A stretch of DNA of 60,809 nucleotides, taken from positions 1 to 60,809 of the IMG/VR virus record IMGVR_UViG_3300030118_007016; one strand, 5' to 3'. Numbering within the stretch: position 1 is the stretch's first letter; each line of letters opens with the position of its first letter. Under the pieces are notes generated by a model. It worked only from the letters and a program-made list of their open reading frames with translations. It was not told the origin of the DNA and did no database searches. Both the position numbers and the translations under genes were made by a program. The DNA is from a virus. This document shows positions 30,685 through 54,176 of this stretch, in pieces.

Positions 30685-31371
30685 TTACAAATCGCCTTTG
30701 TCCCACTTCTTTTTAAATACCCTATACTTCACTCTCATTTTATTTAGATTGTTTACAACTTGCTTGGTGTTTAAACCAGTTATCTCTCTAATATAAAAAT
30801 ATATTGCCTTTTTATTAAAGATATCTATGCGATCTGGGTTTGAGAAAATAAGCCTTACTGCCTCATAAACCTTTTCCTCATTCGGTTTCATATTAGTTGT
30901 TTCCCAAGAATTAACCTCTTCCCAAAAACCCATCCAAAATTCTTTTTCTATTCTCTTTGATTCATACTCATTAACAACAGTAAACTGCCTGATTTCCACA
31001 TTTTTAGGGATTTGATCAAGCTGTACTTCTCTTTTATTTTCTTGAGTGGTCTTTTTTACTTTGTGTATAAACCAGTTCTTTGTAATAACACTAAAGTATG
31101 AAAATGCTTTTGATCCCTTATTGGGATCGTATTTATCTAAAATAGTAGTGAGCCATATTTTACATTCGTCTTTCAATACTTCTATATTTGGAAGATTTGT
31201 GAACTTATATGTATAAATGATTTTATCAACCATTTCACTGAAGGCAGGTTCTATCCAGTCAATATATAACTCAGTTCTTATTTTTATGTCATTGGTTTGA
31301 GCATATTTAACTATGGCTTCTTCATGATCCTTCGTAAAATACAGATTTTTCTTTTTTGCTTTTTTTGGCAT
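30685..31371 (-). CDS. 55: Late-transcription sigma factor, T4 gp55-like
   Basis: The 228-residue product is small for a sigma factor and matches T4 gp55 in size and core. EPAFSEMVDKIIYTYKFTNL is followed by a helix with CKIWLTTILDKYDPNKGSKA and FSYFSVITKNWFIHKVKK. This is the region-2 core-binding and -10 recognition segment, where gp55 has a similar SKAFSYF run. The C-terminus is a second helical domain with an HTH-like ending (GLNTKQVVNNLNKMRVKYRV). gp55 redirects host RNA polymerase to late promoters. The ATG at 31371 overlaps the preceding stop. It is presumably responsible for one of the two promoter types seen in this window. Confidence 0.85.
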   Translation of the reverse strand: MPKKAKKKNLYFTKDHEEAIVKYAQTNDIKIRTELYIDWIEPAFSEMVDKIIYTYKFTNLPNIEVLKDECKIWLTTILDKYDPNKGSKAFSYFSVITKNWFIHKVKKTTQENKREVQLDQIPKNVEIRQFTVVNEYESKRIEKEFWMGFWEEVNSWETTNMKPNEEKVYEAVRLIFSNPDRIDIFNKKAIYFYIREITGLNTKQVVNNLNKMRVKYRVFKKKWDKGDL

Positions 31372-31670
31372 TATTCTGACTCTTCGTTTTGTAAATTTTC
31401 ATTTGTCAAAGTATAAATGTCTTCAAATTCTCTTATGTCTTCAACTACTTGCTTTGAGTGTCGAATCAAGCCGCCCAGAGTTTCATCTCCGTAATATGTC
31501 TCCAAGTCATGTAAACTACTTAAATGATTAGAAAATTGTTCTGCCGACACTAACAGAGACCCGATGCTGTCAGAGACAAAGAGTAGCTTTTGCAACATTT
31601 TTCTAATATACCAAATCAATAGAGCGTTTATGCCCACAGAAAGAAATAAACAAAAAATAAGTAAACTCAA
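31371..31670 (-). CDS. Small single-pass membrane protein, 99 aa
   Basis: The start is a TTG at 31670 that overlaps the previous stop (TTGA), with AAGGA 8-9 nt upstream; this coupling is the reason for accepting TTG. The first 20 residues (SLLIFCLFLSVGINALLIWY) are one membrane span with a basic residue cluster (IRKMLQK) just after it, so the N-terminus is probably outside. The rest is a helical, probably coiled-coil cytoplasmic tail, acidic at the end. It sits between a zinc-ribbon gene and the late sigma gene. Spanin or membrane anchor roles are possible but unsupported. Confidence 0.6.
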   Translation of the reverse strand: MSLLIFCLFLSVGINALLIWYIRKMLQKLLFVSDSIGSLLVSAEQFSNHLSSLHDLETYYGDETLGGLIRHSKQVVEDIREFEDIYTLTNENLQNEESE

Positions 31671-31909
31671 TCTTGGTAATCCTTTGACATTTTTTCTTTG
31701 TCTTCACGAATTTGACGCTTTGCGTCTTCAATGTGCTCTCTAACGACCTTACCAGCGGTTTTATTCTTCAAATAAATTGGAACTTCTGGTATTTTATTAA
31801 GTGTGTTTTTTACTCCACAGATGGGGCAATCAGTTCTCTCCTCACTCATTGAGTGAAAAACTTCCATCACCTCTGAACACTCACAGCATTCATATACATA
31901 GCTGGGCAT
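31667..31909 (-). CDS. FmdB-like zinc-ribbon protein, 80 aa
   Basis: The ATG at 31909 forms an ATGA overlap with the upstream stop and is preferred over a GTG one codon upstream. The N-terminus has two Cys-x-x-Cys knuckles (YECCECSEVME and RTDCPICG) in the arrangement of the FmdB/regulatory zinc-ribbon family; the C-terminal half is a charged helix. Such proteins are common in T4-like phages and are thought to bind nucleic acid or RNA polymerase partners. Its location next to the late sigma gene fits a transcription-associated role, but that is inference. Confidence 0.75.
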   Translation of the reverse strand: MPSYVYECCECSEVMEVFHSMSEERTDCPICGVKNTLNKIPEVPIYLKNKTAGKVVREHIEDAKRQIREDKEKMSKDYQD

Positions 31910-32112
31910 CACTCACCATTTTCTGACGTAACACTGTTATCAAATTTAACAATGGGTGGGTTCTTAACATAAAGTTCAGGCTCTTCTTCCTCTCCATCTG
32001 AGGCTGGCACAAACTCCATTTTTTGCAAAGTTTCTGTAATGTCACTCTGCTCTAATAGGCTTTTTTGCAAAGCCATCATTAATGATCCCATAGCTTGTTT
32101 AGAAAGTTTCAT
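31909..32112 (-). CDS. Conserved small phage protein, 67 aa
   Basis: Two in-frame ATGs are possible, at 32133 and 32112. I chose 32112 because AGGAG lies about 11 nt before it, whereas the first overlaps the previous stop without any ribosome-binding site. The product begins MKLSKQAMGSLMMALQKSLL, continues EQSDIT, then an acidic stretch and VKNPPIVKF. The ALQKSLxEQ.DI plus NPP pattern is one I associate with small proteins of T4-like marine phages, with no known function. It lies in the sigma-factor operon. Confidence 0.65.
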   Translation of the reverse strand: MKLSKQAMGSLMMALQKSLLEQSDITETLQKMEFVPASDGEEEEPELYVKNPPIVKFDNSVTSENGE

Positions 32113-32126
32113 AATATTATTTTCTC

Positions 32127-33083
32127 CTACCATTTAAAGTTATCAATATAGAATTTTACCACTTTTTCTATCTCTTCGTTAAATATTTTTTGCGGTGCCC
32201 ATCCCAATGAGCGCAACTTATCATCGTTCAAAGCATACCTAACATCTTGTCCTTTTCTTTTATAGCCCAAATCTACATAATCTTCCCACTTTACATCTGG
32301 ACCGTGGAAAACCTCGATTACTTTTTTCACTGTTTCTCTGTTTTCTTGCTCAAAGCCTCCAGCGACGTTATAAGTTTCATTAGTTTTCCCACTATTTATA
32401 ATACTTATAACCGCACTTGCAGTATCTTCAGCGTGTAACCAGTTACGTGTAGGCAAACCCTCATCATGAAGTCTAATCTTTTTACCCCGCTGTAAAAGCT
32501 TAACTGAAAGGGGGATAAGTTTTTCTGGATATTGATAAGATCCATAGTTGTTTGTTGGGCGTAAAATAATATATTCTAACCCATATGTCCTAGACCATGC
32601 TTTGACAAGCATATCTGCTGCTGCCTTAGATGCAGAGTATGGATTGCTTGGATTTAAATGATCTGTTTCAAAGTGTTCTCCATTGACAATATCGCCGTAT
32701 ACTTCATCTGTGCTAAAATGAAAAAATATTGGTCTGTTATCAACGTTATTTGGTTTTTGCCTAATCAGCTCCAACAAATTGTAGACACCATCTATGTTTG
32801 ATTTTAGAAAATGCTCGCTGTCTATAATGCTGTTACCCACATGAGTTTCAGCAGCGATATTAATAACATAGTCACAATCTGGCAAAAACTTAAGATCTGC
32901 AATATCTGAGTTTATAAAAGTAAACCTGTCTTTGTAATGCGTTTTAAATGTCCTTATAAGTTCTGGATTTGATGCATACGTTTGACTGTCCACTCCATAC
33001 ACTCTCCATCCCATTCCTAGACACTTGTTTGTGACATGCGAGCCAATAAACCCCAAACACCCTGTGATTACAACCAGTTTCAT
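32127..33083 (-). CDS. dTDP-glucose 4,6-dehydratase-like NAD-dependent sugar dehydratase
   Basis: The 318-residue short-chain dehydrogenase-type protein starts with the Rossmann motif TGCLGFIGSH (residues 7-16). The dehydratase STDEVYG motif, with T125, D126 and E127, comes next. The catalytic Y149-x-x-x-K153 pair is in NPYSASKAAAD. A C-terminal substrate-binding part (RGKKIRLHDEGLPTRNWLHA) follows. RmlB-type enzymes convert a dTDP- or UDP-hexose into the 4-keto-6-deoxy form in deoxysugar pathways. It is slightly shorter than cellular RmlB (about 350). First gene after the sigma operon going upstream, and the last gene of the glycan run. Nucleotide specificity cannot be told. Confidence 0.85.
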   Translation of the reverse strand: MKLVVITGCLGFIGSHVTNKCLGMGWRVYGVDSQTYASNPELIRTFKTHYKDRFTFINSDIADLKFLPDCDYVINIAAETHVGNSIIDSEHFLKSNIDGVYNLLELIRQKPNNVDNRPIFFHFSTDEVYGDIVNGEHFETDHLNPSNPYSASKAAADMLVKAWSRTYGLEYIILRPTNNYGSYQYPEKLIPLSVKLLQRGKKIRLHDEGLPTRNWLHAEDTASAVISIINSGKTNETYNVAGGFEQENRETVKKVIEVFHGPDVKWEDYVDLGYKRKGQDVRYALNDDKLRSLGWAPQKIFNEEIEKVVKFYIDNFKW

Positions 33084-33520
33084 TAAATATATTCCTCCAA
33101 GACGCCAATATAATCACTGCAAATACCAGCGATATTTTTTCCTACTCTCCAGTTATCTCTTTCAGGCATAACACATATGGACTTTTCAGTAAGATGCTTA
33201 CCGGGATATGTCCATATATATCCATCACTAGTCAGCGTTGCATCATCGGTGCCATGATAAAAGCACCTAACATCATTATACAGTAAAATGTTTAGTGCGT
33301 CAATATTTTTACAATGACACCAAAATTTTTTATTTTGCAGAAAATCAATACTTATTTTATATTCAGCTATATCATGTCCCAAAAATAAATCTTTTTCATA
33401 TGACCAAATATCGATTTCGACATCATACCCCTCTTGCAAAGCTTCCTTGATGTATTCCGGACTGTTTTCATATTTTTTATTTGGACCATCAAGATTTCCC
33501 CTATGAGCTATTTTGATCAT
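33083..33520 (-). CDS. Short glycerophosphodiesterase/PLC-like protein, 145 aa
   Basis: The opening KIAHRGN (His6, Arg7), followed by ENSPEYI (Glu18, Asn19), GYDVEIDIW (Glu35, Asp37) and GHD (His49, Asp50), is the active-site pattern of the GDPD/PI-PLC TIM-barrel family. Cellular GDPD enzymes are 240 residues or longer, so this 145-residue version holds only part of a barrel, though the main catalytic residues remain. It may remove or transfer glycerophosphate-type groups in glycan assembly. The gene overlaps the methyltransferase upstream and the dehydratase downstream. Confidence 0.65.
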   Translation of the reverse strand: MIKIAHRGNLDGPNKKYENSPEYIKEALQEGYDVEIDIWSYEKDLFLGHDIAEYKISIDFLQNKKFWCHCKNIDALNILLYNDVRCFYHGTDDATLTSDGYIWTYPGKHLTEKSICVMPERDNWRVGKNIAGICSDYIGVLEEYI

Positions 33521-34206
33521 TTTTTTGGTTTCTCACAACGGATGTAAATCCACTTTGGGTGCTGATTATCTGAAAATGATTGTCTTACATTGGTTGTTAC
33601 GTTAACAAACCCTATCTGATGCAAATCTTCAATCACATCGTTTTCATCACTAATTCTTACATCCCAGCCTGAGTTTGTACATGTCGCCTCATACATATTA
33701 TCATGATATGATGCTGGTTTCGTCCCTGCTTTAGGAACAGGTCCATAAGTCATTTGAAAAGAAAAAACAGCTCCGGGTTTCATAACTCTTAATATTTCTT
33801 TTAAAATATTCTGTCTAATATCATAAACAGGTATATGTTGCAGAGTTATTGTTGACATTACAAAGTCATATTCATCTTTGTTCAGGTCTTTCAAATCAGT
33901 TCCACTATTGACGTACCAATCGCTATTTTGTTCTTTATATTCTTTGCTGCAATATTCTATGTTGCCCTCAGAAATATCAACTCCGTCGACCCGAGACCAT
34001 TCAGCTAGGGAAAGCATATTTGTTACATTTCTACCTTTACCGCAGCCAAAATCAAGTGCTACTTTACCATTCCAACCATCGTTATTTTTAATATCATTCA
34101 ATAGGATATTCCAATAATCATTGTTTGAATTATGCTCTTGGTGATTACTAGTGCCACCCCTGTATTGATCTTTTTGCATTTTTGTGTATTTGTTATTAGA
34201 ATCCAC
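33517..34206 (-). CDS. SAM-dependent methyltransferase, class I
   Basis: A class I Rossmann methyltransferase: motif I is VALDFGCGKGRN (residues about 49-60), an acidic end of strand 2 (VDGVDISEGN) binds the SAM ribose, and motif IV/post-I is DFVMSTITLQHIP. The start is GTG at 34206 with GGAG 10 nt upstream; an in-frame ATG at 34179 is the alternative. Within a glycan operon a sugar O-methyltransferase or carboxyl methyltransferase is likely. The acceptor cannot be read from the sequence. Confidence 0.8.
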   Translation of the reverse strand: MDSNNKYTKMQKDQYRGGTSNHQEHNSNNDYWNILLNDIKNNDGWNGKVALDFGCGKGRNVTNMLSLAEWSRVDGVDISEGNIEYCSKEYKEQNSDWYVNSGTDLKDLNKDEYDFVMSTITLQHIPVYDIRQNILKEILRVMKPGAVFSFQMTYGPVPKAGTKPASYHDNMYEATCTNSGWDVRISDENDVIEDLHQIGFVNVTTNVRQSFSDNQHPKWIYIRCEKPKK

Positions 34207-34921
34207 TTTTTCTATTCTCCAAGTAGTGCTTTAAATCTTCAGGTGTCCCAAGTCCCCACATTTTGTGTACGTAAAATGGGATAAGTGACTTTCCATCTTT
34301 TATAAGTTCATTGTACACTGGAGCTATGTAAAACTCATTGTTTACACGAATATCTTTTTCGATCATTTGCTTAGCATATTTTACGAAATCAGATCCTTTT
34401 CTATACCAATAAATCCCGCAGGTGGCAATATCTGATATTGGTTTTTTCTCAGCAACCTCAGTAATAAATCCACGGGCATTTGTCTTTACAAAAGACCACT
34501 TAGGGTGAACTGCGTTAAATGTAAAGACAATGGCATCAGAAGTGGTCATGTTTTTTAAAGACAAAAAGTTTTGAGGATGATATTCAATAAACTGATCTGA
34601 GTTTGCTATTAACAAATCCTCATCGTCATCGATTAAACTTTCTGCAAGCAGTGCCGTGCAAGCTGCCCCTTCTGTTAGTCCATCTACAACCACATAACTA
34701 AAATGATCATTTGTAATTCTATCAAGTGTGTGCAACAATCCTTCGTATTTTTCTATATGTTGTTTTCTCACCAAAAAAATATATTCACAATCAAAATCCA
34801 AATTTTCAACAACTGTTTGAATCATTGGTTTTCCGTTTACATCAATAAGGGGTTTTGGAAATGTATAACCTTCCTTGGCAAACCTACTTCCCTCACCCGC
34901 CATTGGTATTAAAACTTTCAT
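34196..34921 (-). CDS. Sugar-phosphate nucleotidyltransferase
   Basis: A 241-residue NTP_transferase protein. The N-terminus MKVLIPMAGEGSRFAKEGYT is the nucleotide-binding GxGxRF loop, then FPKPLIDVNGKPMIQ with the sugar-nucleotidyltransferase Lys. DLLIANSDQFIEY carries the metal-binding Asp region and later KKPISDIATCGIYWY the sugar site. Such enzymes make NDP-sugars from NTP and sugar-1-phosphate; size and motifs are near single-domain LicC/RfbF-like enzymes. It overlaps the methyltransferase gene by 11 nt and the HAD gene by 29 nt, an unusually deep overlap. Confidence 0.82.
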   Translation of the reverse strand: MKVLIPMAGEGSRFAKEGYTFPKPLIDVNGKPMIQTVVENLDFDCEYIFLVRKQHIEKYEGLLHTLDRITNDHFSYVVVDGLTEGAACTALLAESLIDDDEDLLIANSDQFIEYHPQNFLSLKNMTTSDAIVFTFNAVHPKWSFVKTNARGFITEVAEKKPISDIATCGIYWYRKGSDFVKYAKQMIEKDIRVNNEFYIAPVYNELIKDGKSLIPFYVHKMWGLGTPEDLKHYLENRKSGF

Positions 34922-35531
34922 TAATAAATCTCCTTACATTTTCTATGTTTACTTCTGTTGCATTATTGACTTGCATAACTTTACATCCAGATGCTCTCGC
35001 TGCCTGAATACCTTTTGGCGAATCCTCTACTATCATCGCATCGTCTGGATTTATTCCTAGATCTTTCAAGATTTTCAAATATCCTTCAGGATCTGGCTTT
35101 GATTTAATAACATCTTGATTGCTAACAAACATATCTAAAGATGAAAAAACACCAGCTTTTTCAAGCATTAAACACGCTGTTTTTCTAATACTATTTGTAA
35201 AACATGCTACTTTTACATTATTTTCTTTCAGCCATTTAATAAGTTCTACCTTTGTTTCATCATATTGACACTTACTATGAATAATATCTAATGTTTTCTG
35301 CTGTTTTAGTTCTCCAATATCTTTATGGTATTCCTCCAGTAAAACACCCATGTCTGTTAGTTTTTTTAATTTTACTTTTGTTGGTAGACCATTAAATGTT
35401 GAATAATGTTCTTCCTCTGTAATAACATAATCTGTATATTGACCCAGAGCTTTGTTAAATGCCTCTTTGTGCCAGTCACATGCATCAATCAGTACCCCAT
35501 CCATGTCGAACATTACAAGTTTTAAACTCAT
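34893..35531 (-). CDS. HAD-superfamily phosphatase/phosphomutase
   Basis: Haloacid dehalogenase fold, subfamily I with a helical cap. Motif I is FDMDGVLIDA (nucleophile Asp9, acid/base Asp11), motif II ACFTNSIR, motif III Lys in SKPDPEGYLKIL, and motif IV VEDSPKGIQAARASG. Closest in pattern to beta-phosphoglucomutase and sugar phosphatase types. It would supply or dephosphorylate a sugar phosphate for the neighbouring nucleotidyltransferase. The ATG at 35531 overlaps the previous stop. Confidence 0.85.
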   Translation of the reverse strand: MSLKLVMFDMDGVLIDACDWHKEAFNKALGQYTDYVITEEEHYSTFNGLPTKVKLKKLTDMGVLLEEYHKDIGELKQQKTLDIIHSKCQYDETKVELIKWLKENNVKVACFTNSIRKTACLMLEKAGVFSSLDMFVSNQDVIKSKPDPEGYLKILKDLGINPDDAMIVEDSPKGIQAARASGCKVMQVNNATEVNIENVRRFINESFNTNGG

Positions 35532-36247
35532 GCTGTACCTCTTAAGTTGATGTCTATTCCATGCTCTTCAACTACATTTCTTAGAGAGTCTCCATAGTCA
35601 CTAGTGTACCATTTACCTTTAACTATTGCTGTTGCAAAATATGGGTATATACTACTGTCCCAATGAAACATTCCTCGTTTATTGTCGCATTCTTGCCAAG
35701 TCATGCCAGTTTTTATGCCTAAGTACTCACATATCATAGATGAGTTTGATTCGAACTCCCATATATTATTGCCATATGTTTTGCTATATATGCTCATTAG
35801 TTTTTCTTTATTGCAAACACTTGGCTGAATAGCGAATCTTAGATTTTGTGGATTCTCATACACATCTGGATGGTTTGTATTGTTAATTAAAGGATGATTT
35901 TCATCATAGCTAGCTCTAGCTAGTTTTACGATATCTATCTCTCCCTCTTTTACAAGATGAACTATTTGATTTATTTTTTCTTTATTTGGAGCGTCATATA
36001 AAAACATATCCTCGTGATGAAAAAGCACAATCTCTTCTTCAACTTGTGCTAAACAATGGAGCATTCTTTTTTGATATGACAAAGAATCATCGTATTTAAT
36101 AACAATCCAATCATTATCTAAGTCTTGAGTAGATTGATCTGTAAATAAATATTTTTTATAACCTTTCATATACTTGTCTGTCTGTGCAAAAAGAGGTGCC
36201 CACACATCAGAGTAATCAGAATGAGAATAAAATACTAAAGGAATCAT
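35528..36247 (-). CDS. Putative glycosyltransferase-like protein, 239 aa
   Basis: Start taken at the ATG at 36247, which overlaps the upstream stop as TAATG; a GTG three codons upstream is less likely. The sequence runs from MIPLVFYSHSDY through KYLFTDQSTQ to a VLFHHEDMFLYD motif reminiscent of the DxD-type metal site of GT-A glycosyltransferases. Later FESNSSMICEYLG and RGMFHWDSSIYPYF are likely acceptor-site elements. No firm family match is made. Soluble, no membrane span, coupled to glycan genes on both sides. Confidence 0.65.
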   Translation of the reverse strand: MIPLVFYSHSDYSDVWAPLFAQTDKYMKGYKKYLFTDQSTQDLDNDWIVIKYDDSLSYQKRMLHCLAQVEEEIVLFHHEDMFLYDAPNKEKINQIVHLVKEGEIDIVKLARASYDENHPLINNTNHPDVYENPQNLRFAIQPSVCNKEKLMSIYSKTYGNNIWEFESNSSMICEYLGIKTGMTWQECDNKRGMFHWDSSIYPYFATAIVKGKWYTSDYGDSLRNVVEEHGIDINLRGTA

Positions 36248-37080
36248 TACACCCACCTTGTCTTTTCATAAAGTCCTACTTTTTTGCAGAACCACTTGTG
36301 ATAAAGGTGACTATCAGTGACTCGCCACCTTGGATATTTCATTAAATTTTTGCTTCTTTCATTTTGAGGCTTTTCTAATTCGTTGGTAAACTGCTCTGGT
36401 GCATTAAAGTCCCACACATTATATCTAACACTATCAAACCATCCACTTGTTAAGCACTTTTCATACTCCGAGTTAGGCTTAAAATCCTGTAAAGCATTTT
36501 CATATATTGTAGAATATTTTTTCATAACTTCCCCAGAGCCATAAAACCACATGTCTCCGTATCCAGCATTCATTTGATCCCAATATGTAGTGTACAAATA
36601 ACTTGGATCCGATTTAGGATCAAATCTAAGCTGATTCACTTCAGAACCACCTCTCTGGCTTATGTCAAATCTAGTTGTTATTACCCAATCATATACAAAA
36701 TTATTATCATTTTCATACTTTTCTCTTAATTGTAAGGCTTTTTTTCTTGAGTAATAGAAGCTTAGTATTCTGGATGCGATTGCATTGTTATACATTGTTT
36801 GTTGTCTTGGGAACCCTTCATCAATGTACTGCTGACTTATTCCATTATCTGTACATATTTTATCAAAATCTACTTGTTGCTCAAATAGAGACATTTTTGG
36901 AGAATAGAAATCTTCAACTATACTTTCATACTCTGGTTGCCAGCAGTGCACAAATACATCTACACTATCAGACTTAGAATAAACTGTCTCTTTTAAGTGT
37001 TGTAATCCCCCAACAACGGTTGAATGATCTCCAGTGCTTACAGTTCCAAAATATCCGTGAAGACATAGAGCGATTCTCAT
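36247..37080 (-). CDS. Putative glycosyltransferase, 277 aa
   Basis: The start (MRIALCLHGYFGTVSTGD) is a Rossmann-like strand-loop. VDVFVHCWQPEY and VITTRFDIS (a R-x-D motif usual for the donor site in this loosely defined group of GT-A-like enzymes) follow, then YGDMWFYGSGEVMKKYS. Its C-terminal WRVTDSHLYHKWFC element recalls phage and bacterial proteins annotated as polysaccharide glycosyltransferases. Catalysis is unproven. ATG at 37080 follows the aminotransferase gene, overlapping by 4 nt. Confidence 0.65.
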   Translation of the reverse strand: MRIALCLHGYFGTVSTGDHSTVVGGLQHLKETVYSKSDSVDVFVHCWQPEYESIVEDFYSPKMSLFEQQVDFDKICTDNGISQQYIDEGFPRQQTMYNNAIASRILSFYYSRKKALQLREKYENDNNFVYDWVITTRFDISQRGGSEVNQLRFDPKSDPSYLYTTYWDQMNAGYGDMWFYGSGEVMKKYSTIYENALQDFKPNSEYEKCLTSGWFDSVRYNVWDFNAPEQFTNELEKPQNERSKNLMKYPRWRVTDSHLYHKWFCKKVGLYEKTRWV

Positions 37081-37697
37081 CTTACCTCCACATCTTTAAA
37101 CAGATTAAATTCAGTTAAGTCTCTGTAAGGGGGGTTTTCTGGTATGTCTGGTACATTCTCAGGGTAATTTTGCATCAACATAAGCCCCCGAACTGCTTGC
37201 TCTGGAGTCATATACATATTCCAACCCTCTTCATCAATCATATCCTCGTGATATAGCATACCATCAGTTCTTCCTTCATAGCGACGGGCTTTTAACCACT
37301 TCATAGCATCTAAGTTATCAAGCAGAATCATACCTCCCTTTCCAATCTTAAGGTGTTTTTTTATGTGAAATGAAAGGCACATCATTGTTCCGGGGATGTA
37401 CATATTGGAAGTTAATCTTTTTGCTGCATCGTATATTGGAAATGGTTTTAGTTGATAAATACCTTCCCATTGAATGTCTTCAAAAACTAACTTTCCACCT
37501 GCTTGCATGACAGATTGTGGTGGAGAAAGGTATGTTCTCTTTGGCAAAATTACTTCTTTGCCTTCTACTTTGTGCCACTTACAGGCGAGAAAAAGAGCAT
37601 TGGTGCAACTATTAACTGATACTGCATAAGGTGCGCCGGTGTAGTGTGCAATTTCTTCTTCAAACATTTTTACTACTTTGTATGGACTATGTAGCAT
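37077..37697 (-). CDS. Truncated DegT/DnrJ/EryC1-type sugar aminotransferase
   Basis: The ATG at 37697 (ATGA overlap with the upstream stop) is preferred to a GTG one codon earlier. HYTGAPYAVSVNSCTNALFL, then EVILPKRTYLSPPQSVMQAG and FEDIQWEG, fit the PLP-binding large domain of sugar aminotransferases. The likely Schiff-base Lys is in CLSFHIKKHLKIGKGGMI, matching the family S-F-x-x-x-K-x-x-x-x-G-x-G-G pattern. Members are usually 360-400 residues, so at 206 residues the C-terminal small domain is missing. No frameshift remnant follows, so this is a compact version, active or not. Confidence 0.75.
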   Translation of the reverse strand: MLHSPYKVVKMFEEEIAHYTGAPYAVSVNSCTNALFLACKWHKVEGKEVILPKRTYLSPPQSVMQAGGKLVFEDIQWEGIYQLKPFPIYDAAKRLTSNMYIPGTMMCLSFHIKKHLKIGKGGMILLDNLDAMKWLKARRYEGRTDGMLYHEDMIDEEGWNMYMTPEQAVRGLMLMQNYPENVPDIPENPPYRDLTEFNLFKDVEVR

Positions 37698-38887
37698 CAC
37701 TCTGTCTCCAAAATATAATATTTCTTTTTAAATCCACAAGCCTCAAATAACTTTATGCTAGCTTCATTTTCAAGCTTTACTTTTGCAAATGCTTTAGGCT
37801 CTTGTTTGATAATATTTTTTATCATATATTTGCCTAACCCCCTTCCTTGAAAGTCTGGGTGTGTTGCAACTCTAATGTCATTGTCAATCACTCCAGCGTA
37901 TCCAGCAAAAGCATTATCAACCAAAGCAACGTAAAAACAATCAGAATATTTTTTCATAAATTGGTTGTGTTCTTCCTCGGATATGTGCTCTTGATTAATA
38001 AAACCTGTTTTTACTTGTGGATGATTTCTTAAGTCTCTTATGTTGTCCCAGTATTTTTTTTGATTTTTTACAATATGAACATCATTAGACCACACACATT
38101 TTTTTCCTATATCTGCGGATTTGTAGTTAGACCAGAAGTGCCCCTTTAAATAATCCCTCTCATATCCCAAATCAAAATATGGATGTAACGTAGTGCCAAT
38201 ATCTAAGTACGTGTTTTGATCATATTCTTTAAAAAGCTCATGTATCAATATCTCACTCAAACTGCTCGCTGAAAAAAGAAAGACGTGATCTTTTATGTTA
38301 TTTTGTTTTATCCAATCTTTAATTTCATCTGCTAAATGATGATCATTTACGATGCAGTTTTCTCCAACCCTAAAGTCCTTTACAACATCAAAGCAAAGTT
38401 CTTTTTTTGCTTTTTCTAAGTCTGCATTTTTACTACATACCATTACAACTTTTCTTTCTGCTATAATGGGAACCAGTCTCGTAAGAAATGCTTCATAATT
38501 CCCATTAACAAATAAATTTGCCCATGTTAGATATTCATTTGTTCGCCCAACTTGTCTCTTCATCCAAGCATGTGCTTGATGACCTCCGATACAACAGGGG
38601 CAAGCTATACCAGTATAATAATTGTCTTTAGAAAACAAAAAGGATTTTATAAGCTTGTCTCTTACAAAAGCATGCTTTTCTGGATCGAAATGCTTATGGT
38701 CTTCTTTACTGTATCCAAAGTTATGTGTAAAGTCCCCCTCTATAACATAATCATCAGCTATAACTAATTTCATATTTTTTAGAATATCAGCCTCACCGTC
38801 AGAAAATCTTACAAATGCAAAGTTTTCTTTTGCAGCAAGCTTTTCAGCAAACATTTCTAAATCTTTAGTAAAGTCTTTACCTAACAT
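37697..38887 (-). CDS. GT-D-like glycosyltransferase fused to GNAT acetyltransferase
   Basis: Residues 1-260 resemble the DUF1792/GT-D glycosyltransferase fold: FAFVRFSDGEAD (R27-F-S-D-G-E32), an ACPCCIGG segment, KVVMVCSKNAD, and TYLDIGTTLHPYFD near residue 235. Residues about 290-396 are a GNAT acyltransferase: YVALVDNAFAGYAGVIDND, then the acetyl-CoA loop HPDFQGRGLGKYMIKNII, and ASIKLFEACGFKKK. The pairing suggests transfer of a sugar coupled to N-acetylation of the sugar or acceptor. It overlaps the MBL gene upstream by 11 nt and the aminotransferase by 1 nt. Confidence 0.75.
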   Translation of the reverse strand: MLGKDFTKDLEMFAEKLAAKENFAFVRFSDGEADILKNMKLVIADDYVIEGDFTHNFGYSKEDHKHFDPEKHAFVRDKLIKSFLFSKDNYYTGIACPCCIGGHQAHAWMKRQVGRTNEYLTWANLFVNGNYEAFLTRLVPIIAERKVVMVCSKNADLEKAKKELCFDVVKDFRVGENCIVNDHHLADEIKDWIKQNNIKDHVFLFSASSLSEILIHELFKEYDQNTYLDIGTTLHPYFDLGYERDYLKGHFWSNYKSADIGKKCVWSNDVHIVKNQKKYWDNIRDLRNHPQVKTGFINQEHISEEEHNQFMKKYSDCFYVALVDNAFAGYAGVIDNDIRVATHPDFQGRGLGKYMIKNIIKQEPKAFAKVKLENEASIKLFEACGFKKKYYILETE

Positions 38888-40106
38888 AACACGTATCTCT
38901 AAATGAAAGCATCTGTCTCCATTGTTTCATATTATGAACACTAAAACAAGATGTAATATTCATAGTATCAGCTCCCCAAGGATTTTTAAAAAACCCATTC
39001 AAATCGTAAGATGTTACAGAAGCTATAGGAACTTTGCTCAAGTCATCTGTATGTGTAAAACTTATTTTGCTATCTGCAAAACTAAACTCACAGTATTTAT
39101 CGATATCCTGAACACATAGGGTAAATTTGGTGTCTGGGACATTTAATCCAAAATAATTTTTTAACTTTGATATTTCCCTATACATTGAAGAGAAAGACTC
39201 TTCCAAGTCATCTTTAGTAAACATTGTAGTTTTCTTTGGATTTTTGTTCTTAGCTTCATTAAATATGTTTGACCACTTTTTGCAGTTAGATAATGACTTT
39301 TTACGATCCATTTCAAATGGAATATTTTCAAGATAAAATGGTGCAAACATATTTATATTTTTATTGTTCTCTATAACCTCTTGAATGTTTACAATATGAT
39401 CGTTTAAAAAATGATTTTCAGGTCTACAAAAAGTTATAAAACTAGCAAATGGAATCGTTATTTTTGGGTTTAGTATTCTATGCGTATCTAATAAGTCAGA
39501 AATATGAGATTCCATAGCCAAATTAAGAGACTTTTTATCATCCTTATTTCCATAAAATCCTGCTAATGAGAATTGGTTAAACAACAAATCAATATCTCTT
39601 CCCATCATGTTTTCAAAAATACCTGTCTTCATTCTATGAAGTTCCTCTGTATTAAATTCACAATCATTTTTATTGAGAATTAGTTTTCCGTCAATGTCAA
39701 ACAACATTGCAGAATCATGATTATTTTTGAAAAAAGAAAATGTGAAATGGTCTATATCGTTGGTATAAAACTGATATGGTTCGAATTGATAATATTTAAA
39801 CCCTAGATTACTCATATTTTCATGAATATTGTCATTATCTCTCTTTGGCATTAAGACTTCTATTCTTTGGTTACATTTTTCTCTTATTTGCTTTAGAGTA
39901 GACCAGCTCAAATGATCTGGGTGTTCATGAGAAATAAATATATACTTTAGGTTTGATAAATCCAAATCGTCTATATTGGTTTCGTTTAACAACTCCCAAG
40001 AATCATTAAAAACTTTTCCACTAAACCATGGATCAACTAGAATAGAATAATCTTTTTTTATGATTTGAAAACATGCGTGATTTATAAACTTAACTTCAAA
40101 ACTCAT
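38877..40106 (-). CDS. Metallo-beta-lactamase-fold hydrolase, 409 aa
   Basis: A beta-lactamase-fold metal hydrolase with the HxHxDH site in YIFISHEHPDHLS (His60, His62, Asp64, His65). Early FINHACFQIIKKDYSILVDP is typical of the UlaG/CMP-Neu5Ac-hydroxylase-like branch, which acts on sugar or nucleotide-sugar substrates. The second metal-binding half is less clear. The C-terminal 150 residues are not a usual MBL tail. It is embedded in the glycan run, downstream of the UDP-GlcNAc epimerase-like gene, so a sugar substrate is probable. Confidence 0.75.
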   Translation of the reverse strand: MSFEVKFINHACFQIIKKDYSILVDPWFSGKVFNDSWELLNETNIDDLDLSNLKYIFISHEHPDHLSWSTLKQIREKCNQRIEVLMPKRDNDNIHENMSNLGFKYYQFEPYQFYTNDIDHFTFSFFKNNHDSAMLFDIDGKLILNKNDCEFNTEELHRMKTGIFENMMGRDIDLLFNQFSLAGFYGNKDDKKSLNLAMESHISDLLDTHRILNPKITIPFASFITFCRPENHFLNDHIVNIQEVIENNKNINMFAPFYLENIPFEMDRKKSLSNCKKWSNIFNEAKNKNPKKTTMFTKDDLEESFSSMYREISKLKNYFGLNVPDTKFTLCVQDIDKYCEFSFADSKISFTHTDDLSKVPIASVTSYDLNGFFKNPWGADTMNITSCFSVHNMKQWRQMLSFRDTCYVR

Positions 40107-41091
40107 CCTTCAAGACCTCATACACTTTTTGGGCAGCATATCCGTCTCCATAGGGGCAGTCTCCGATAGGAATGTGATCCTCATTGACTTGATTGAAAAG
40201 ACCTTCCAAATCCTCTGGTTCAAGACACATAAAAGCAAAAGTGTTGACACCTTCAAGTCTTTCGGTTTTCTTTCGGCATACAATACATTTCTTTTTTAGA
40301 AAAGAAGTTTCTTCTTGTAATCCGCCAGAATCAGTGATAACCAGTCTTGTTTGAGCCAACAACTTTATAAACTTATTATACTCCATTGGCTCAATAATTT
40401 TAAGGTTTTTTAGCAAGTGTTTGTGCTTTTGGACATTAGGATTTGGGTGCAGGGGTATAATAAAATCTAAGTCTTTATTGCCTTCTGCAATCTTATCGAT
40501 GGTCTTGAACCATTGATCCATGTTGTGATGATTCTCTCTTCGATGCATTGTTACAATAACTTTGTTTGTGTATTCTGTCTCAATATCTCGTAGGTTATCC
40601 AGCACAGTATTGCCTACAACCTCTACTCTACCTTGAGTATTCTCATTAGATAAAAATACTTTGCTAAGATCTGTTGGACAAAGATGAACATCAGCAATTC
40701 TAGATATTGCCTGACGGTTGAACTCCTCTGGATATGGTTGATTTTTATCGTATGTCCTTAAACCTGCTTCCAAATGGATTACTTTGATCCTTCTGTGGAA
40801 AGCAGCAAGAGCAATAGAGAAAGCAGAAGTCGTGTCTCCCTGCACCAAAACAGACGTTACACCTTCAAAAATCTCTTCTAAGTTCATAACGGAACTCACG
40901 ATAGAGTCAAGTCGGTTTGGACCGTCTTTGATTTCTAACTTTACTAAATCTATGTCGTCCCCTACTTTTGAGAGTAGGTCTGTGTGCTGACCTGTGAAAA
41001 GCAAACGATAAGGAATATTGCCGTCCATTTGATCTAGCAATGGCTTAATTTTAATCCACTCTGGTCTAGTTCCAAAACTTAATAAAATCAT
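40096..41091 (-). CDS. UDP-N-acetylglucosamine 2-epimerase-like
   Basis: All hallmark motifs of the WecB/NeuC family are present: SFGTRPEWIKIKPLL, VLVQGDTTSAF, HLEAGLRTYDKNQPYPEEFN, RIADVHLCPTD, VGNTVLD, VTMHRRENH and TDSGGLQEE. The 331-residue length is a little below cellular enzymes (about 370). The reaction is the interconversion of UDP-GlcNAc and UDP-ManNAc, or a hydrolysing relative of it. That gives the pathway an N-acetyl-mannosamine-type precursor. Overlaps both neighbours by a few bases. Confidence 0.9.
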   Translation of the reverse strand: MILLSFGTRPEWIKIKPLLDQMDGNIPYRLLFTGQHTDLLSKVGDDIDLVKLEIKDGPNRLDSIVSSVMNLEEIFEGVTSVLVQGDTTSAFSIALAAFHRRIKVIHLEAGLRTYDKNQPYPEEFNRQAISRIADVHLCPTDLSKVFLSNENTQGRVEVVGNTVLDNLRDIETEYTNKVIVTMHRRENHHNMDQWFKTIDKIAEGNKDLDFIIPLHPNPNVQKHKHLLKNLKIIEPMEYNKFIKLLAQTRLVITDSGGLQEETSFLKKKCIVCRKKTERLEGVNTFAFMCLEPEDLEGLFNQVNEDHIPIGDCPYGDGYAAQKVYEVLKDEF

Positions 41092-42695
41092 ACTTTTATG
41101 CCTCGCACAGTTTCCCAGCCGCCTTTGATCGCTGTTTGAACGCAGACATCCCTTTCACTAAAAAACTGCTGATGTGATACAGCACTGTTAGTTGATGTTG
41201 CTTTTGTATCAATGCCCAATTCATTGCCCAAGATAGATCCGTGAAGACTTGTATCCTCTGGTGGGTGTGGGGGACAGTAGGTTTGTATATTGCCGTATTT
41301 CTGTGCAAGGTAAGAAAACTGGATGTCTTCTCCATTGTCCCAAGTAGTTGGCTTTTCTCTCCACAAGTGTGATAACCACTCTCGCTTAAAGAACCAAGCG
41401 TGTCCTACTAGATCTACCCTTGTTGTTTCACTATTTTGTGTGGGCCACCCGCATCGGTCGTGTTGAACATAGAACTTGTCGTTCAATGTGACACCAGCAG
41501 ATCCAAGAATGCCTTCGCTAGTTTTCATTGTTTCCAAACAGTTCTCAAACCAACGATCTCCCGGTATAGTGTCATCGTCAAAGATGGCTACATATTCAGT
41601 GTCAGCCAGCAAAGCAGCGGCAAACCTTCCATAAAACTTCCAGTTGTGATCATTGTGAAATACTCTATCAAGGTCCAGTTCTTTAAAGTTAAATCCAATG
41701 TTATCCTCGTGTTCATTTACCCACAGCCAAACCTGCGCTGGTCTGGTTGTTTGTTTTCTAATCGCATCAATCTGCATTCTAAGATTGTATGGACGACGGT
41801 ATGCATTTAAAATAACTGTAATAGGGGCAGTTGTAAACTCTTTTCTTTTCTCGCTTTCTAATACCTCGACAACTTTGTCAATAACCTCAGTTTTTTGGGA
41901 CCTTACAAAGTCAAGAAGCTCTTGTCCTTTATACTTTGGGAACCAATCCTCGCTTGCACATCCAAGGTTGTTATTAGTTTTAAGTTTACAGTTTACAATA
42001 CGGGCTTCAACAGCTAAACGACAAAAGGTTTCGAGGACTTGGGAAAAGAAGACCAGCCCGTCGTGTTGAGAAAGTTGGTTAATGAAGTTATCATAGTCTA
42101 AAGAAACAATAAGATTGTAATCAATATTGTGTTTTTCGCAGAAACTTTTCGCTTGATAGGTCCCTTTTATTTCATTGGAGCTGCTTAAAACAGCCATCTT
42201 GCCATTTTTCTTTGTATCTACATATTTTTGCAAAACATGTAGTTCTTCATCAGACCAAAGAGAACAACCAAGATTAATTACATTTGCTTCTCTAATGTTT
42301 TTGCTGATTACTTCTGCGTGTAGTTTAGATTGAGCAAAGACTGCCTTGGCATTTCTGTAGAACTCCAAGTTGGTCAAGTTAGTTGCTGGAACCCTATAGT
42401 CTTTGTAAGGTGAAGGATCTCGACCAACAATGTATTTGTGATCATGTTCATAGATTACATAATCACAAGTTTGTAGCAGACGCAAGCATGCAGGACTGAG
42501 CATAACAAAGTTGGATACAATAAAGGTTTTTTCTGCATTGTCTTTGATTAGCTTTTCTGTTACTTGCTTAGATTTTATGCGAGTTACTTTGTATCCTCGT
42601 TCAACAAGGGAGTTGACAACAACCTGATCTACAAGTTCACCGCCACCCTTTATCTCATCAGCATAAAAATCTGCTATGTGGATTATTCTTTTCAT
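41088..42695 (-). CDS. Two-domain glycosyltransferase (GT-B-like N-half, GT-A C-half)
   Basis: Residues 1-285 look like a GT4-type GT-B fold lacking some helices: IADFYADEIKGGGELVDQV, YVIYEHDHKY, KMAVLSSSNEIKGT and FFSQVLETFCRLAVEARI. Residues about 290-535 are a GT2-like GT-A domain: APITVILNAYRRPYNLRMQI, EYVAIFDDDTIPGDRWFENC with a DDD metal motif, and WDNGEDIQFSYLAQKYG carrying the acidic ED acceptor-site pair. A bifunctional enzyme adding two sugars is likely. The second half is the better-supported catalytic unit. Confidence 0.82.
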   Translation of the reverse strand: MKRIIHIADFYADEIKGGGELVDQVVVNSLVERGYKVTRIKSKQVTEKLIKDNAEKTFIVSNFVMLSPACLRLLQTCDYVIYEHDHKYIVGRDPSPYKDYRVPATNLTNLEFYRNAKAVFAQSKLHAEVISKNIREANVINLGCSLWSDEELHVLQKYVDTKKNGKMAVLSSSNEIKGTYQAKSFCEKHNIDYNLIVSLDYDNFINQLSQHDGLVFFSQVLETFCRLAVEARIVNCKLKTNNNLGCASEDWFPKYKGQELLDFVRSQKTEVIDKVVEVLESEKRKEFTTAPITVILNAYRRPYNLRMQIDAIRKQTTRPAQVWLWVNEHEDNIGFNFKELDLDRVFHNDHNWKFYGRFAAALLADTEYVAIFDDDTIPGDRWFENCLETMKTSEGILGSAGVTLNDKFYVQHDRCGWPTQNSETTRVDLVGHAWFFKREWLSHLWREKPTTWDNGEDIQFSYLAQKYGNIQTYCPPHPPEDTSLHGSILGNELGIDTKATSTNSAVSHQQFFSERDVCVQTAIKGGWETVRGIKV

Positions 42696-43969
42696 TATTC
42701 AAAACTTATAACAGGCTCTTCTTCTTTTTGAGTTTCTACAGGAATGACAGCGTTTGCAAAAGCTTCATATTGTTTGTCTTCATCAAATTCTTTTTTAATC
42801 CAAGTTTTAAGTTTTTTAGCCATTTCTTCATATTTGCTATAGTCTTCATAAACGTTACTAACAACTTTTTTGAAACTACTTTCATCAGCATAGCACCACA
42901 TTGAGTCTGCCTGTAGCACCCCATCCCACACAGCCTCTTGTTGAATAGGACCAAGTGTATACTCCACCTCTGCAAACATCGGCTTTAAAACTGTTTGTGT
43001 TTTCTTTTTCGATCCTTTTTTTCTTTGCTTTTGGGGCATATTTAAAAAATCACATTGTCCACTCCAGTTAGTAGTAATAACTGGAAGTCCACAATAAGCC
43101 GATTCGAAAAGAGGAAGACCGTAGCCCTCACCGTGGCTCAAAGAAATAAAAGCTTTGATTTTTGGATGCGAATACAATCCAATCATCTCAGGGTCAGACA
43201 TATCCCCATGCAAAACGTATAACTTACATTGAACACCATCAGCAGCGAACTGAGAGACAAGGTTCTCAAACTGCATCTTGTCCATCGTTGAATTGTTTCT
43301 AAAAAAACCTTTTATTACAAGACCAACATTTGGGTTATCTTTGAAGTTTTCTACAAACCACTTAATTGTATTGCTAGCATTTTTTCTTGGACCCCATTGT
43401 GATACCATCAAAAAATTAAAATCTGTTTCCAAATCCAGCTTCAAAGACTTTTTCTTTGTTTTTTTTGCAGGATAATTTACAACAGTAATAGGAATATTTG
43501 ATTTCCTAACACTAGCTTCTCCAACCTTTTCATTATTAGCACGGTTATACACTGGATAGCTAGTATTTTCTAGTGTATTCTTTGAGTGCGAAGAGGTCAC
43601 GACAATCCTATCCATGGCGATACTTTTCTCAACCCATTGGGGAGATACTTTTGTTGTCTCAATTCCAGCGGTGTATCCAACATTTACAGGAGCTATTTTT
43701 TCCCACTCATTAGGTATAGTAACTTGTAAAGAAACATCAAACTTACCATCGCCCTGCATATGATGGAATGTTTTGCCTATTAAATAATCGACATAGTTTT
43801 TTTCTTCATCATATTGAGAAACCCATCCAGTTTGTCCCCAGTTGGTATTAATCAAATATAGATCGATCTTATCTTCTTGTCTTCTTAAAGAACGCAGTGC
43901 AAATCTTGCCTGTTCTCCATAACCAGATCTGCTCAACACTGGTCCTCTAATAACAACCTTTTTTTTCAT
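42695..43969 (-). CDS. Glycosyltransferase family 4-like, 424 aa
   Basis: A GT-B retaining-type glycosyltransferase. The N-terminus GPVLSRSGYGEQARFALRSL is the donor/acceptor glycine loop. The C-terminal donor domain has FNFLMVSQWGPRKNASNTIK, then KAFISLSHGEGYGLPLFESAYCG with the conserved E-x(7)-E motif, and PVITTNWSGQCDFL. No signal or membrane span. It follows the next GT gene by 14 nt, with GAGGAAA before the ATG at 43969. Substrate unknown. Confidence 0.88.
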   Translation of the reverse strand: MKKKVVIRGPVLSRSGYGEQARFALRSLRRQEDKIDLYLINTNWGQTGWVSQYDEEKNYVDYLIGKTFHHMQGDGKFDVSLQVTIPNEWEKIAPVNVGYTAGIETTKVSPQWVEKSIAMDRIVVTSSHSKNTLENTSYPVYNRANNEKVGEASVRKSNIPITVVNYPAKKTKKKSLKLDLETDFNFLMVSQWGPRKNASNTIKWFVENFKDNPNVGLVIKGFFRNNSTMDKMQFENLVSQFAADGVQCKLYVLHGDMSDPEMIGLYSHPKIKAFISLSHGEGYGLPLFESAYCGLPVITTNWSGQCDFLNMPQKQRKKGSKKKTQTVLKPMFAEVEYTLGPIQQEAVWDGVLQADSMWCYADESSFKKVVSNVYEDYSKYEEMAKKLKTWIKKEFDEDKQYEAFANAVIPVETQKEEEPVISFE

Positions 43970-43983
43970 TACGTTTCCTCTTT

Positions 43984-45240
43984 TTAATTAATCTTTTTGA
44001 ACGTCCATGGACTATACTGCTTTCTGGTTTCCCAAGAACCTCGCTCCTCATGTACTCTATCCAGCAAATCTACCCATTTTTGTTGATATTTTTCGTAAGA
44101 ATAGTTTGTGAGAACATGCTCTCTACCAGCTTTGCCAAGCGCTTCTCTTTCTTCTTTACTCATATTATACATTTCTCTCATGGCACTCATAAAATCTTCT
44201 TTACTAACCCTGTCCTCATAGATGTATGGCACCTGTTGGGATCCGATTATTGCTTTTGAGCAGGGCTGGATGCCAATACCAAACCAATTTTCTCCATCTG
44301 TGACTTGTTCTTGTAGTCCTCCGGTCATATTGACTACGATAGGAGTTCCACAAGACAGAGATTCTAGAGTAGCCAAGCCGAAGCCCTCTGCATCGGATAT
44401 ATTGATCGTGCAATCTGCAAGATTATACATCATCCCTAGTTGCTCAGGAGAAACTTTATTTGTTGATAGTCTAATTTGTCCATCCACGGCACCAAAATGT
44501 TGCATCAAGTGTTCTAGTGGCTGACCATATGGATCATTTGGATCAGTATGCATTAGCAAAACTACCTTATCTTTACCGACTTCATTAGCAAAATCATTAA
44601 ACCACTTTAATAAACTGCCACTTAGCTTTCTTCTTGCATTCCTATTATTCCAAAAGAATACAAATTTACCATCTAAATTTTGTTTTGTTTTTATTTCATC
44701 AATAGTATCTTGGTCGACCGGCTTAAAAAACTGTGGATCTACTGCATGGGGTAAATAAATATTTTCAACCTTGTCTGTAACTTCTGAAACTACCTCATGT
44801 GTAACTTTAGATATGGAAGCTATAACGTCAGTCGACTCATACCACCCTTTATTAAAAACAGGCGCTGGATGATTATCCCATACATGATAATACACCATTG
44901 GAACTTTGTCTCTAATCTCATTGTCCATTAACCAAAGCCATTCATAAAATCTAGGGTCCGTCATAAACCACAAGATATCGGGCTTTTGAGTGGACAATAT
45001 GGACCTGATTTGTTCTTGGGTGCCGTATCCATCGACTGGAAATATTGTCCAATCTCCATTTGATCCCTCAACTGTGATAGGATCATAAGTTGGATGCTTA
45101 ACTGCTCCTCCTAGAGATATAACCTGATATCTGCCTGTTTTTAGCAATGCATCAATCATGTTTTTTGTTTGATTTGCTACTCCGGATGGAGACAACGGGT
45201 GGTCGCTAAGTGTCAAAACTTTAATTTTTTTATCTGTCAT
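43984..45240 (-). CDS. Glycosyltransferase family 4-like, 418 aa
   Basis: ATG at 45240 makes an ATGA overlap with the nuclease gene; a TTG two codons earlier is not needed. The N-terminal Rossmann half has VLTLSDHPLSPSGVANQTKN and DILWFMTDPRFYEWL. The C-terminal half has FVFFWNNRNARRKLSGSLLK, then CTINISDAEGFGLATLESLS with the E-x(7)-E motif, CGTPIVVNMTGGLQEQV and a C-terminal helix. A retaining GT4 enzyme using an NDP-sugar, related in plan to the neighbouring GT gene but not a recent duplicate. Confidence 0.88.
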   Translation of the reverse strand: MTDKKIKVLTLSDHPLSPSGVANQTKNMIDALLKTGRYQVISLGGAVKHPTYDPITVEGSNGDWTIFPVDGYGTQEQIRSILSTQKPDILWFMTDPRFYEWLWLMDNEIRDKVPMVYYHVWDNHPAPVFNKGWYESTDVIASISKVTHEVVSEVTDKVENIYLPHAVDPQFFKPVDQDTIDEIKTKQNLDGKFVFFWNNRNARRKLSGSLLKWFNDFANEVGKDKVVLLMHTDPNDPYGQPLEHLMQHFGAVDGQIRLSTNKVSPEQLGMMYNLADCTINISDAEGFGLATLESLSCGTPIVVNMTGGLQEQVTDGENWFGIGIQPCSKAIIGSQQVPYIYEDRVSKEDFMSAMREMYNMSKEEREALGKAGREHVLTNYSYEKYQQKWVDLLDRVHEERGSWETRKQYSPWTFKKIN

Positions 45241-46010
45241 TTGCAATGTTCCGTTTTATGAAATTCACACTTGCGGCATGCAAGCCTGTTTTTTATGAAG
45301 TTTTTCTTCTCAATATTGTAAATCGCTTTTTCAAGAAATTTAAGTGCATTTTCAGTTTTTCTTGGACCACTTGTGACTCGAAATATTTCAACTCTTTCTT
45401 TTTTAGCTGTTCTTTTAAGCAGTGCGAAGTGAGTTTCTATCATCTTAGGGTCTACATTGTGCTTTTTAGCCCAATAATGCTTGTAAAAAGTCAACTGGTA
45501 GGTCATCATTGGGTCAGATTTCTTGCGAGCATCCCATCCCCAAGAGCATGTTTTCCAATCGATGATATGTGTCTTGCCATCAGAGGTCTCGATAACCAAA
45601 TCAATGAAGCCTTTGAACTTATTTTTCTCTTCACAAGGGAAATCTTCGATGATTTCCATCAAATCCTCTTCAGCAGCGAGGACTTTATACTCTCCAAAGT
45701 GCTCTTTCATGGCAGGAAGCACTTCTTCGAGGATCAATGGACCTTGATTTTCCATGGAAGTAACCAATTTTTCGTCTTTTTTAACATTTTTGGGCAAATT
45801 TTCAAGACTTTCTTTGAATTTTAGGTCAAAAAACGATTTTTTATCGTCCAAACCCTCAGTCATCATCTTTTCGCAGGTATCGTGGATAGCATTACCAAAA
45901 GCAGTGAAAGCATTGCCTTCAAAGCCTTTTACCTTGTCTATGTTCATTAATTTGTGATAAAAAGGACAAAAATCCCAGTTTTTTGCCTCAGAAAAGCTAA
46001 TATGACCCAT
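45237..46010 (-). CDS. PD-(D/E)XK nuclease, RecB/Cas4-like
   Basis: ISFSEAKNWDFCPFYHKLMNI and AFTAFGNAIHDTCEKMM start the fold; the catalytic residues are Asp137 in KGFIDLVIET and D151-x-K153 in HIIDWKTCSW. Three C-terminal cysteines (ACRKCEFHKTEHCK) with Cys15 near the N-terminus resemble the four-Cys iron-sulfur site of Cas4 and AddB nucleases. At 257 residues it is a stand-alone exonuclease-like protein. It is the first gene upstream of the GT run, though a DNA-end-processing role is unrelated to glycans. Confidence 0.85.
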   Translation of the reverse strand: MGHISFSEAKNWDFCPFYHKLMNIDKVKGFEGNAFTAFGNAIHDTCEKMMTEGLDDKKSFFDLKFKESLENLPKNVKKDEKLVTSMENQGPLILEEVLPAMKEHFGEYKVLAAEEDLMEIIEDFPCEEKNKFKGFIDLVIETSDGKTHIIDWKTCSWGWDARKKSDPMMTYQLTFYKHYWAKKHNVDPKMIETHFALLKRTAKKERVEIFRVTSGPRKTENALKFLEKAIYNIEKKNFIKNRLACRKCEFHKTEHCK

Positions 46011-50964: not shown

Positions 50965-50993
50965 ATTATAGCTTATATTTATTTAAGTTTCAA
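50965..50993 (-). promoter_or_regulatory. Sigma70-type promoter before CxxCH gene
   Basis: TTGAAA at 50988-50993, 17-bp spacer, TATAAT at 50965-50970 on the minus strand. The expected transcription start falls at or next to the ATG (50958), implying a leaderless or near-leaderless mRNA. Confidence 0.65.
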
Positions 50994-54155: not shown

Positions 54156-54176
54156 CTAACTTTTAAATTAATGTGA

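Follow-up and report, generated by a model that had tools for sequence, protein, structure and literature searches.

Clusters of genes for sugar-nucleotide enzymes and glycosyltransferases (GTs) have been described in jumbo cyanophages (PMC7824862, PMC9602691) and in pelagimyophages (PMC7029224), and one is found in the cultured Flavobacterium phage vB_FspM_immuto (immuto, NC_055915). For moraphages, another T4-related lineage, four core groups of glycosyltransferases are reported together with variable islands that are still unexplored (PMC12619734); this may be the same phenomenon as the island analysed here. In most accounts, phage glycan clusters appear as scattered auxiliary genes, and the acceptor of the sugars (virion, host surface or DNA) is currently decided by assumption among authors. 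The present locus is a glycan island of 14 co-directional open reading frames (ORFs) on the minus strand at positions 32127–45246 of a linear 60.8-kb viral fragment (IMG/VR record IMGVR_UViG_3300030118_007016; its whole length of 60,809 nucleotides is referred to as the window). An initial reading of the DNA without database searches (the sequence-only reading) considered an island of this kind unusual in a phage. This does not hold, because similar clusters are published and immuto has the same left end along with aminotransferases, a methyltransferase and an epimerase. What appears to be new is the combination of a constant frame with an exchangeable middle, a lineage-wide enzyme triad and small enzymes, of which no description was found in the literature on similar clusters.

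Constant frame and variable middle

A search of viral contigs with the sugar-phosphate nucleotidylyltransferase (NTase) of the island gave 317 relatives, 80 of which were retained; roughly 30 loci have parts of the frame in common with the window, and about 15 were compared in detail together with two long genomes, G001 (195,690 bp) and G002 (159,483 bp). The shared gene order is PhoH-(ATLF-like)-PDDEXK-GT4a-GT4b, followed by a variable middle, by HAD-NTase-GDPD and then by ZnR-sigma. The left end of the frame is marked by a PIN-PhoH protein (47132–48439, on the minus strand as are all frame and island genes; PF02562, E-value 6e-54, and synteny) and by a PD-(D/E)XK nuclease (45237–46010; PF12705, 1.4e-17), which adjoins GT4a in nearly all relatives covering that stretch. 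The right end is formed by a 74-aa protein (31909–32133; recognized by synteny), a Zn-ribbon protein (31667–31912; PF09723, 2.6e-9, and synteny) and a late-sigma-like factor (30685–31371). The profile match of the latter is weak (phrog_234, 8e-4), and it is found at the same place in relatives with 52–92% identity. Synteny in related phages, which the sequence-only reading had proposed as a check, was thus observed for the frame in about 15 loci and both long genomes, with the middle being variable.

The closest relative, L002 (protein identity of 95% for NTase and 92% for the sigma-like factor), aligns to the window with 73–79% DNA identity, and the alignment is broken at 33534–34207, 36249–37076 and 38393–40093. 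These breaks correspond to the methyltransferase gene, to a gene for a 277-aa protein, and to the GNAT half of a fused gene together with the gene of a metallo-beta-lactamase-fold (MBL) protein. L002 has neither the methyltransferase nor the MBL gene, its GT-D and GNAT proteins are separate, and the position of the 277-aa gene is occupied by a 38%-identical gene plus one extra gene. On these alignments, whole genes of the middle are replaced in the T4-like relatives while the frame stays the same. Bacterial serotype loci likewise have a fixed frame in which the middle genes are exchanged, and by analogy the island looks like a viral version of such a locus. With such a frame and gene-precise exchange, the variation can be compared between genomes and tested in the cultured relatives immuto and Microcystis phage Mel-JY01 (PP395634). 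A Megablast search with the island found no match among cultured phages.

The genes are tightly packed. Thirteen overlapping genes had been reported initially; the island itself stands, the count is 14 ORFs, and 12 of the 13 junctions in 32127–45246 do overlap (−1 to −29 bp), the sole exception being a gap of +14 bp. The ORF sizes, the overlaps and the conservation in about 80 independent contigs exclude a chance origin of this arrangement, so the island is real. The main genes from 3842 to 48439 (the PhoH end) are all co-directional, and no gap between them exceeds 66 bp. This array contains PhoH, the PDDEXK nuclease, the island, the Zn-ribbon protein, the sigma-like factor, an amidase, baseplate gp25 and gp6 and two giant proteins. 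Such packing suggests that the island may be co-expressed with tail and lysis genes late in infection.

In G001 and in G002 alike, the island sits at the corresponding position, with baseplate genes on one side and PhoH on the other. G001 has T4-type genes (gp23-type capsid, portal, sheath, GroEL and SbcC), both genomes carry a PolA-like gene, and the family B polymerase of Mel-JY01 has no match in either. Since head, tail and replication genes are present, these records are not small fragments. As in glycan clusters of large T4-like marine phages, nucleoside diphosphate (NDP)-sugar enzymes and several GTs occur in the neighbourhood of gp25 and gp6, and the content varies. The best explanation of this gene content is that the island belongs to an uncultured lineage of marine T4-like myophages.

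Enzymes of the island

All enzyme classes named by the sequence-only reading were recovered by family searches at the coordinates given below, the GDPD-like class by a profile match and invariant residues. About six GTs had been counted, and five of them are supported. Three have Pfam matches: GT4a (43984–45246; PF00534, 8.6e-13; phrog_2170, 7e-32) and GT4b (42695–43969; PF00534, 2.7e-14), which are constant frame genes, and a GT2 enzyme with a long N-terminal extension (41088–42695; PF00535, 2.6e-7, residues 293–413). GT4a has homologues in immuto, Mel-JY01 and RM378, and GT4b occupies the corresponding position in G001, G002, immuto and Mel-JY01. The fourth is a GT-D-like domain (PF22882, E 0.0024, sub-cut-off) fused to a GNAT acetyltransferase (37697–38887; PF00583, 2e-11, residues 300–386). 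Its DGE motif (D30-G31-E32) is invariant, and the two parts, which are fused in this phage, are separate adjacent ORFs in L002, L008, L011, L012, L017 and G002. The fifth (35528–36256) has no family match, and its GT-A fold was assigned with AlphaFold (pLDDT 92, pTM 0.91) and Foldseek, with B4GALNT1, SpsA, TarP and RmlT as the matched structures (E 1e-6 to 8e-5, probability 1.00); E82 and D83 are invariant. The 277-aa product of the variable position 36247–37080 is a candidate GT: it matches phrog_13607 (8e-10), a PHROG without annotated function, retains invariant D131, R137 and D139, and shows 22–65% identity among relatives. Taken together, the profiles and the model point to five GTs, and a sixth is possible.

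The RmlB-like NDP-hexose 4,6-dehydratase (32127–33083; PF16363, 6e-57) retains the TDE and YxxxK motifs, and its homologues occupy the same place in most relatives. It scores 2e-91 with TIGR01181 (306 bits against a cut-off of 365 bits, that is, under the equivalog threshold). The protein would therefore be placed in the fold family of RmlB, with the same motifs, and its nucleotide specificity is not fixed by the score. The non-hydrolysing UDP-GlcNAc 2-epimerase of WecB type (40096–41091; PF02350, 8.5e-72) is above the curated NCBIfam equivalog cut-off (TIGR00236, 237.1 against 210.15 bits). The S-adenosylmethionine-dependent methyltransferase (33517–34206; PF08241, 3e-16) is a swapped gene.

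The DegT/DnrJ/EryC1 sugar aminotransferase (37077–37700; PF01041, 1.4e-22, 80.9 bits) is compact. It has 207 aa and its homologues mostly have 201–230 aa, against about 360–440 aa in the solved members, so it falls short of the full-length fold of about 360–400 aa. Judging by the conservation of the pyridoxal phosphate positions Asp91 and Lys115, which do not vary among 15 phage homologues of comparable length, the protein is a consistent small form and not a broken gene. Relatives are known from immuto, from a Synechococcus phage and from two genomes of uncultured huge phages (595 and 642 kb).

The MBL-fold hydrolase (38877–40106; PF13483, 1.8e-8) is weakly similar to an MBL domain found in diiron monooxygenases of CmlA type, which are tailoring enzymes. 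Together with the second cluster of jumbo cyanophages, proposed to serve for a sugar-derived secondary metabolite (PMC7824862), this resemblance would suit an island that produces a soluble or secreted small glycoside, or rewires the host sugar-nucleotide pools, instead of building a polymer. Five or six GTs with a constant GT4 pair are better suited to an oligosaccharide, however, and the MBL gene is rare: it is limited to two fetched loci, the other being L008, and a search for relatives seeded with the MBL protein returned no loci. We consider this the least probable of the explanations discussed here.

HAD-NTase-GDPD triad

The NTase (34196–34921; PF00483, 3e-11; phrog_3980, 2.5e-70) is the most conserved gene of the island, with 68–95% identity across phages in the alignment; its nearest solved structure is 4evw. 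The first member of the triad, a HAD enzyme of beta-phosphoglucomutase (beta-PGM) type (34893–35531; PF13419, 3e-32), matches beta-PGM structures and has invariant D9, D11, H21, K76, K145, E169 and D170. Most of the catalytic positions of beta-PGM are retained, but the region of its Arg49 differs, and beta-PGM identity is not settled by the sequence. The enzyme may act as a mutase or a phosphatase feeding the NTase.

The third member is a shrunken GDPD-like phosphodiesterase of 145 aa (33083–33520; phrog_34507), which has no Pfam match. Its profile matches the solved GDPD 7e0v (E 0.001) over the first 55 residues only. The GDPD catalytic core (His-Arg, Glu-Asp and His) corresponds to H6, R7, E35, D37 and H49, invariant in 30 phage and cellular homologues. 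The model has a pLDDT of 95, and as regards the full TIM-barrel fold of GDPD its Foldseek match is weak (4oec, E 0.05, probability 0.90).

The HAD gene abuts NTase in 70 of the 80 phage loci and the GDPD-like gene lies within 5 kb of it in 75, in a sample that was recruited with NTase and is biased towards loci possessing it. In SAR11 single-cell genomes GDPD is followed by a HAD-NTase fusion (~450 aa), and related arrangements occur in Prochlorococcus, Poseidoniales, a gammaproteobacterial metagenome-assembled genome (MAG) and a Flavobacteriaceae MAG. The triad is conserved, phages have it in common with abundant marine cells, and it is a compact target for biochemistry.

The phage NTases form one clade, and four cyanophage NTases cluster loosely with Prochlorococcus. 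Repeated recent capture of NTase from hosts is disfavoured by this single clade, the support of which is only 0.66. The clade includes the locus L110, which is deposited under a Methylococcaceae MAG. With its phage-type gene order PDDEXK-GT4a-GT4b and an NTase of 73% identity, L110 is apparently a phage contig that was assigned to a bacterial genome during binning.

Acceptor of the glycan

The best of three readings of the island is glycosylation of virion proteins, to which we give roughly an even chance. It is preferred on two grounds: baseplate, lysis and sigma-like genes share a gap-free co-directional array with the island, and the enzyme prerequisite for T4-type DNA glucosylation is missing; it also fits the lack of membrane genes. 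Activated amino- or deoxy-sugars would probably be made in the host cytoplasm. The RmlB-like dehydratase, the compact DegT enzyme and the GNAT domain could yield an acetylated 4-amino-4,6-dideoxyhexose, possibly methylated, WecB would supply UDP-ManNAc, and HAD with NTase would provide a further NDP-linked residue. At a late stage of infection, five or six GTs, the constant GT4 pair acting first, would then assemble the sugars on a virion protein. The fixed frame PhoH-PDDEXK-GT4a-GT4b ... ZnR-sigma would let related phages exchange the middle genes and thereby change the glycan. The sugars, the late timing and, above all, the virion-protein acceptor are putative in this scheme.

The sequence-only reading noted that no flippase or Wzx/Wzy-like gene is present, which was confirmed and extended to the long relatives. 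It also pointed to transport or polymerase genes that might lie just outside the window; no flippase-like polytopic protein was found in the 196- and 159-kb relatives, where the single polytopic protein (869 aa) has no PHROG match. The flippase family PF01943 was detected in none of 13 related records (controls positive in 13 of 14). The initiating phosphoglycosyltransferase family PF02397 was likewise detected in none of the 13 (controls positive in 9 of 14; the WecA-type family PF00953 was not searched). Thus, of the components of a Wzx/Wzy locus, NDP-sugar genes and GTs are present, and the initiating transferase and flippase/polymerase were not found, which argues against a self-sufficient phage O-antigen system.

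Several points weigh against a virion acceptor. The absence of export genes had been taken to favour it; the absence is real, but the step is weak, because phage GTs could use host lipid-linked intermediates that are exported by host Wzx/Wzy. Late timing is deduced from gene order only; promoter matches in the region are no more numerous than in shuffled sequences, and the terminator scan is likewise at chance. Similar clusters were published as host-surface modification, both for cyanophages and for pelagimyophages (PMC7029224, PMC7824862, PMC9602691). The cellular triad stands beside surface-type genes in some genomes, and in Legionella HAD-NTase adjoins LicD; this partner is absent from 18 phage records.

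In a rival explanation, the phage enzymes would modify lipid-linked O-antigen or capsule precursors of the host, the host flippase and polymerase would export the product, and the altered cell surface would block superinfection or grazing. The occurrence of the triad as an operon in cells of SAR11, Prochlorococcus and Poseidoniales agrees with this explanation, as does the presence of a WecB-type epimerase and a dehydratase, which are typical of surface glycans. With no initiating phosphoglycosyltransferase or flippase in any of the related records, it stands or falls with a compatible pathway of the host, and the island is situated among tail and lysis genes in a gap-free array and not in an obvious early region. 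Modification of the host surface is in our opinion possible but less likely than virion glycosylation.

The GT4 pair is always beside the PDDEXK nuclease and near PhoH, and GTs of phages are known to hypermodify DNA (cited in PMC12619734), so the sugar could be attached to phage DNA bases. However, no homologue of the hydroxymethylase/thymidylate-synthase family PF00303 was found in 14 related virus contigs (controls positive in 9 of 14), which makes T4-type DNA glucosylation unlikely. The set of sugar genes also varies between close relatives, and the GTs match GT4, GT2, GT-D-like and GT-A; the T4 alpha- and beta-GT families did not appear in these searches. A search for Tet/JBP gave no match and is uninformative, its control being also silent. 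We regard DNA as a very improbable acceptor.

Returning to virion glycosylation, we tentatively suggest that an ocean-wide lineage carries a virion-coat serotype locus, exchanging whole sugar-pathway genes and using miniaturised enzymes (the 207-aa transaminase and the 145-aa GDPD-like protein). If this is true, phages alter the glycan of the particle much as bacteria alter their O-antigens, escaping defences or surface recognition.

Neighbouring genes

The two giant genes of the array (4820–15364 and 19554–27845, minus strand) encode proteins of 3514 and 2763 aa, and proteins of similar size occupy the equivalent positions in G001 and G002. The sequence-only reading spoke of a giant LamG protein; neither LamG nor any other Pfam domain was found at E<=0.01 in either of them. 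The product of 46013–46744 (minus strand) has a weak, sub-cut-off match to the metallopeptidase fold of Pfam ATLF and a HEIAH motif, and is kept beside PDDEXK in relatives; most probably it is a phage metallopeptidase.

Outside the array, a tmRNA gene, uncommon in phages, is located at 53833–54156 on the plus strand (tag ANTDTYSEYALAA; ARAGORN and Rfam, 136.7 bits); none was found in G001 and G002. Directly beside it, a protein with an S-adenosylmethionine-lyase-family domain (54190–55326, plus strand) is a possible counter-defence against S-adenosylmethionine-dependent systems. A divergent TubZ/FtsZ-like tubulin (50979–52130, minus strand) has a 26% homologue in G001 and no tblastn match among cultured phages.

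Comparison with known systems

The closest cultured counterpart is the cluster of immuto, which begins with the same PDDEXK-GT4a-GT4b left end and continues in one direction with GT2, aminotransferases (including a compact DegT of 214 aa), a methyltransferase and an epimerase. Its frame GTs are only ~30% identical, the HAD-NTase-GDPD triad is absent from the stretch examined and, unlike the relatives of the island, immuto has a thymidylate-synthase homologue. Mel-JY01 has PDDEXK, two GT4-type genes, a methyltransferase and further GTs in the same order, as well as a related sigma-like factor, but the latter is located elsewhere in its genome, the middle is smaller, the NTase triad is missing and the polymerase belongs to family B.

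In cyanophages S-CAM9, S-PRM1, S-8S55 and B23 an NTase of 55–57% identity is surrounded by GTs and epimerases, and HAD and GDPD-like genes are nearby; according to the literature, P-SSM2 belongs with the T4-like cyanophage clusters of lipopolysaccharide type. In contrast to the island, in those cyanophage clusters HAD and NTase are fused, the flanks are photosynthesis and tRNA genes, and the PDDEXK-GT4-GT4 frame does not occur in the stretches examined. The host recognition cluster of pelagimyophages (PMC7029224) is similarly hypervariable, lies in the structural region and contains glycosyltransferases, but it spans VrlC to gp14 with tail fibres, whereas the frame of the island extends from PhoH/PDDEXK to ZnR/sigma. 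The cellular GDPD and HAD-NTase operon of SAR11, Prochlorococcus and Poseidoniales is homologous to the triad (~35–57% identity); in SAR11 HAD and NTase are fused and few sugar genes are in the neighbourhood.

Glycosylation of the virion itself is on record for mycobacteriophages (cited in PMC12619734). The fibril clusters of Megavirinae belong to eukaryotic giant viruses and have been tested by chemistry; no homology to the island is claimed. On the virion reading, the two would work alike: in Megavirinae, viral amino-sugar pathways and GTs, which are clade-specific and variable, decorate the particle (PMC10117803).

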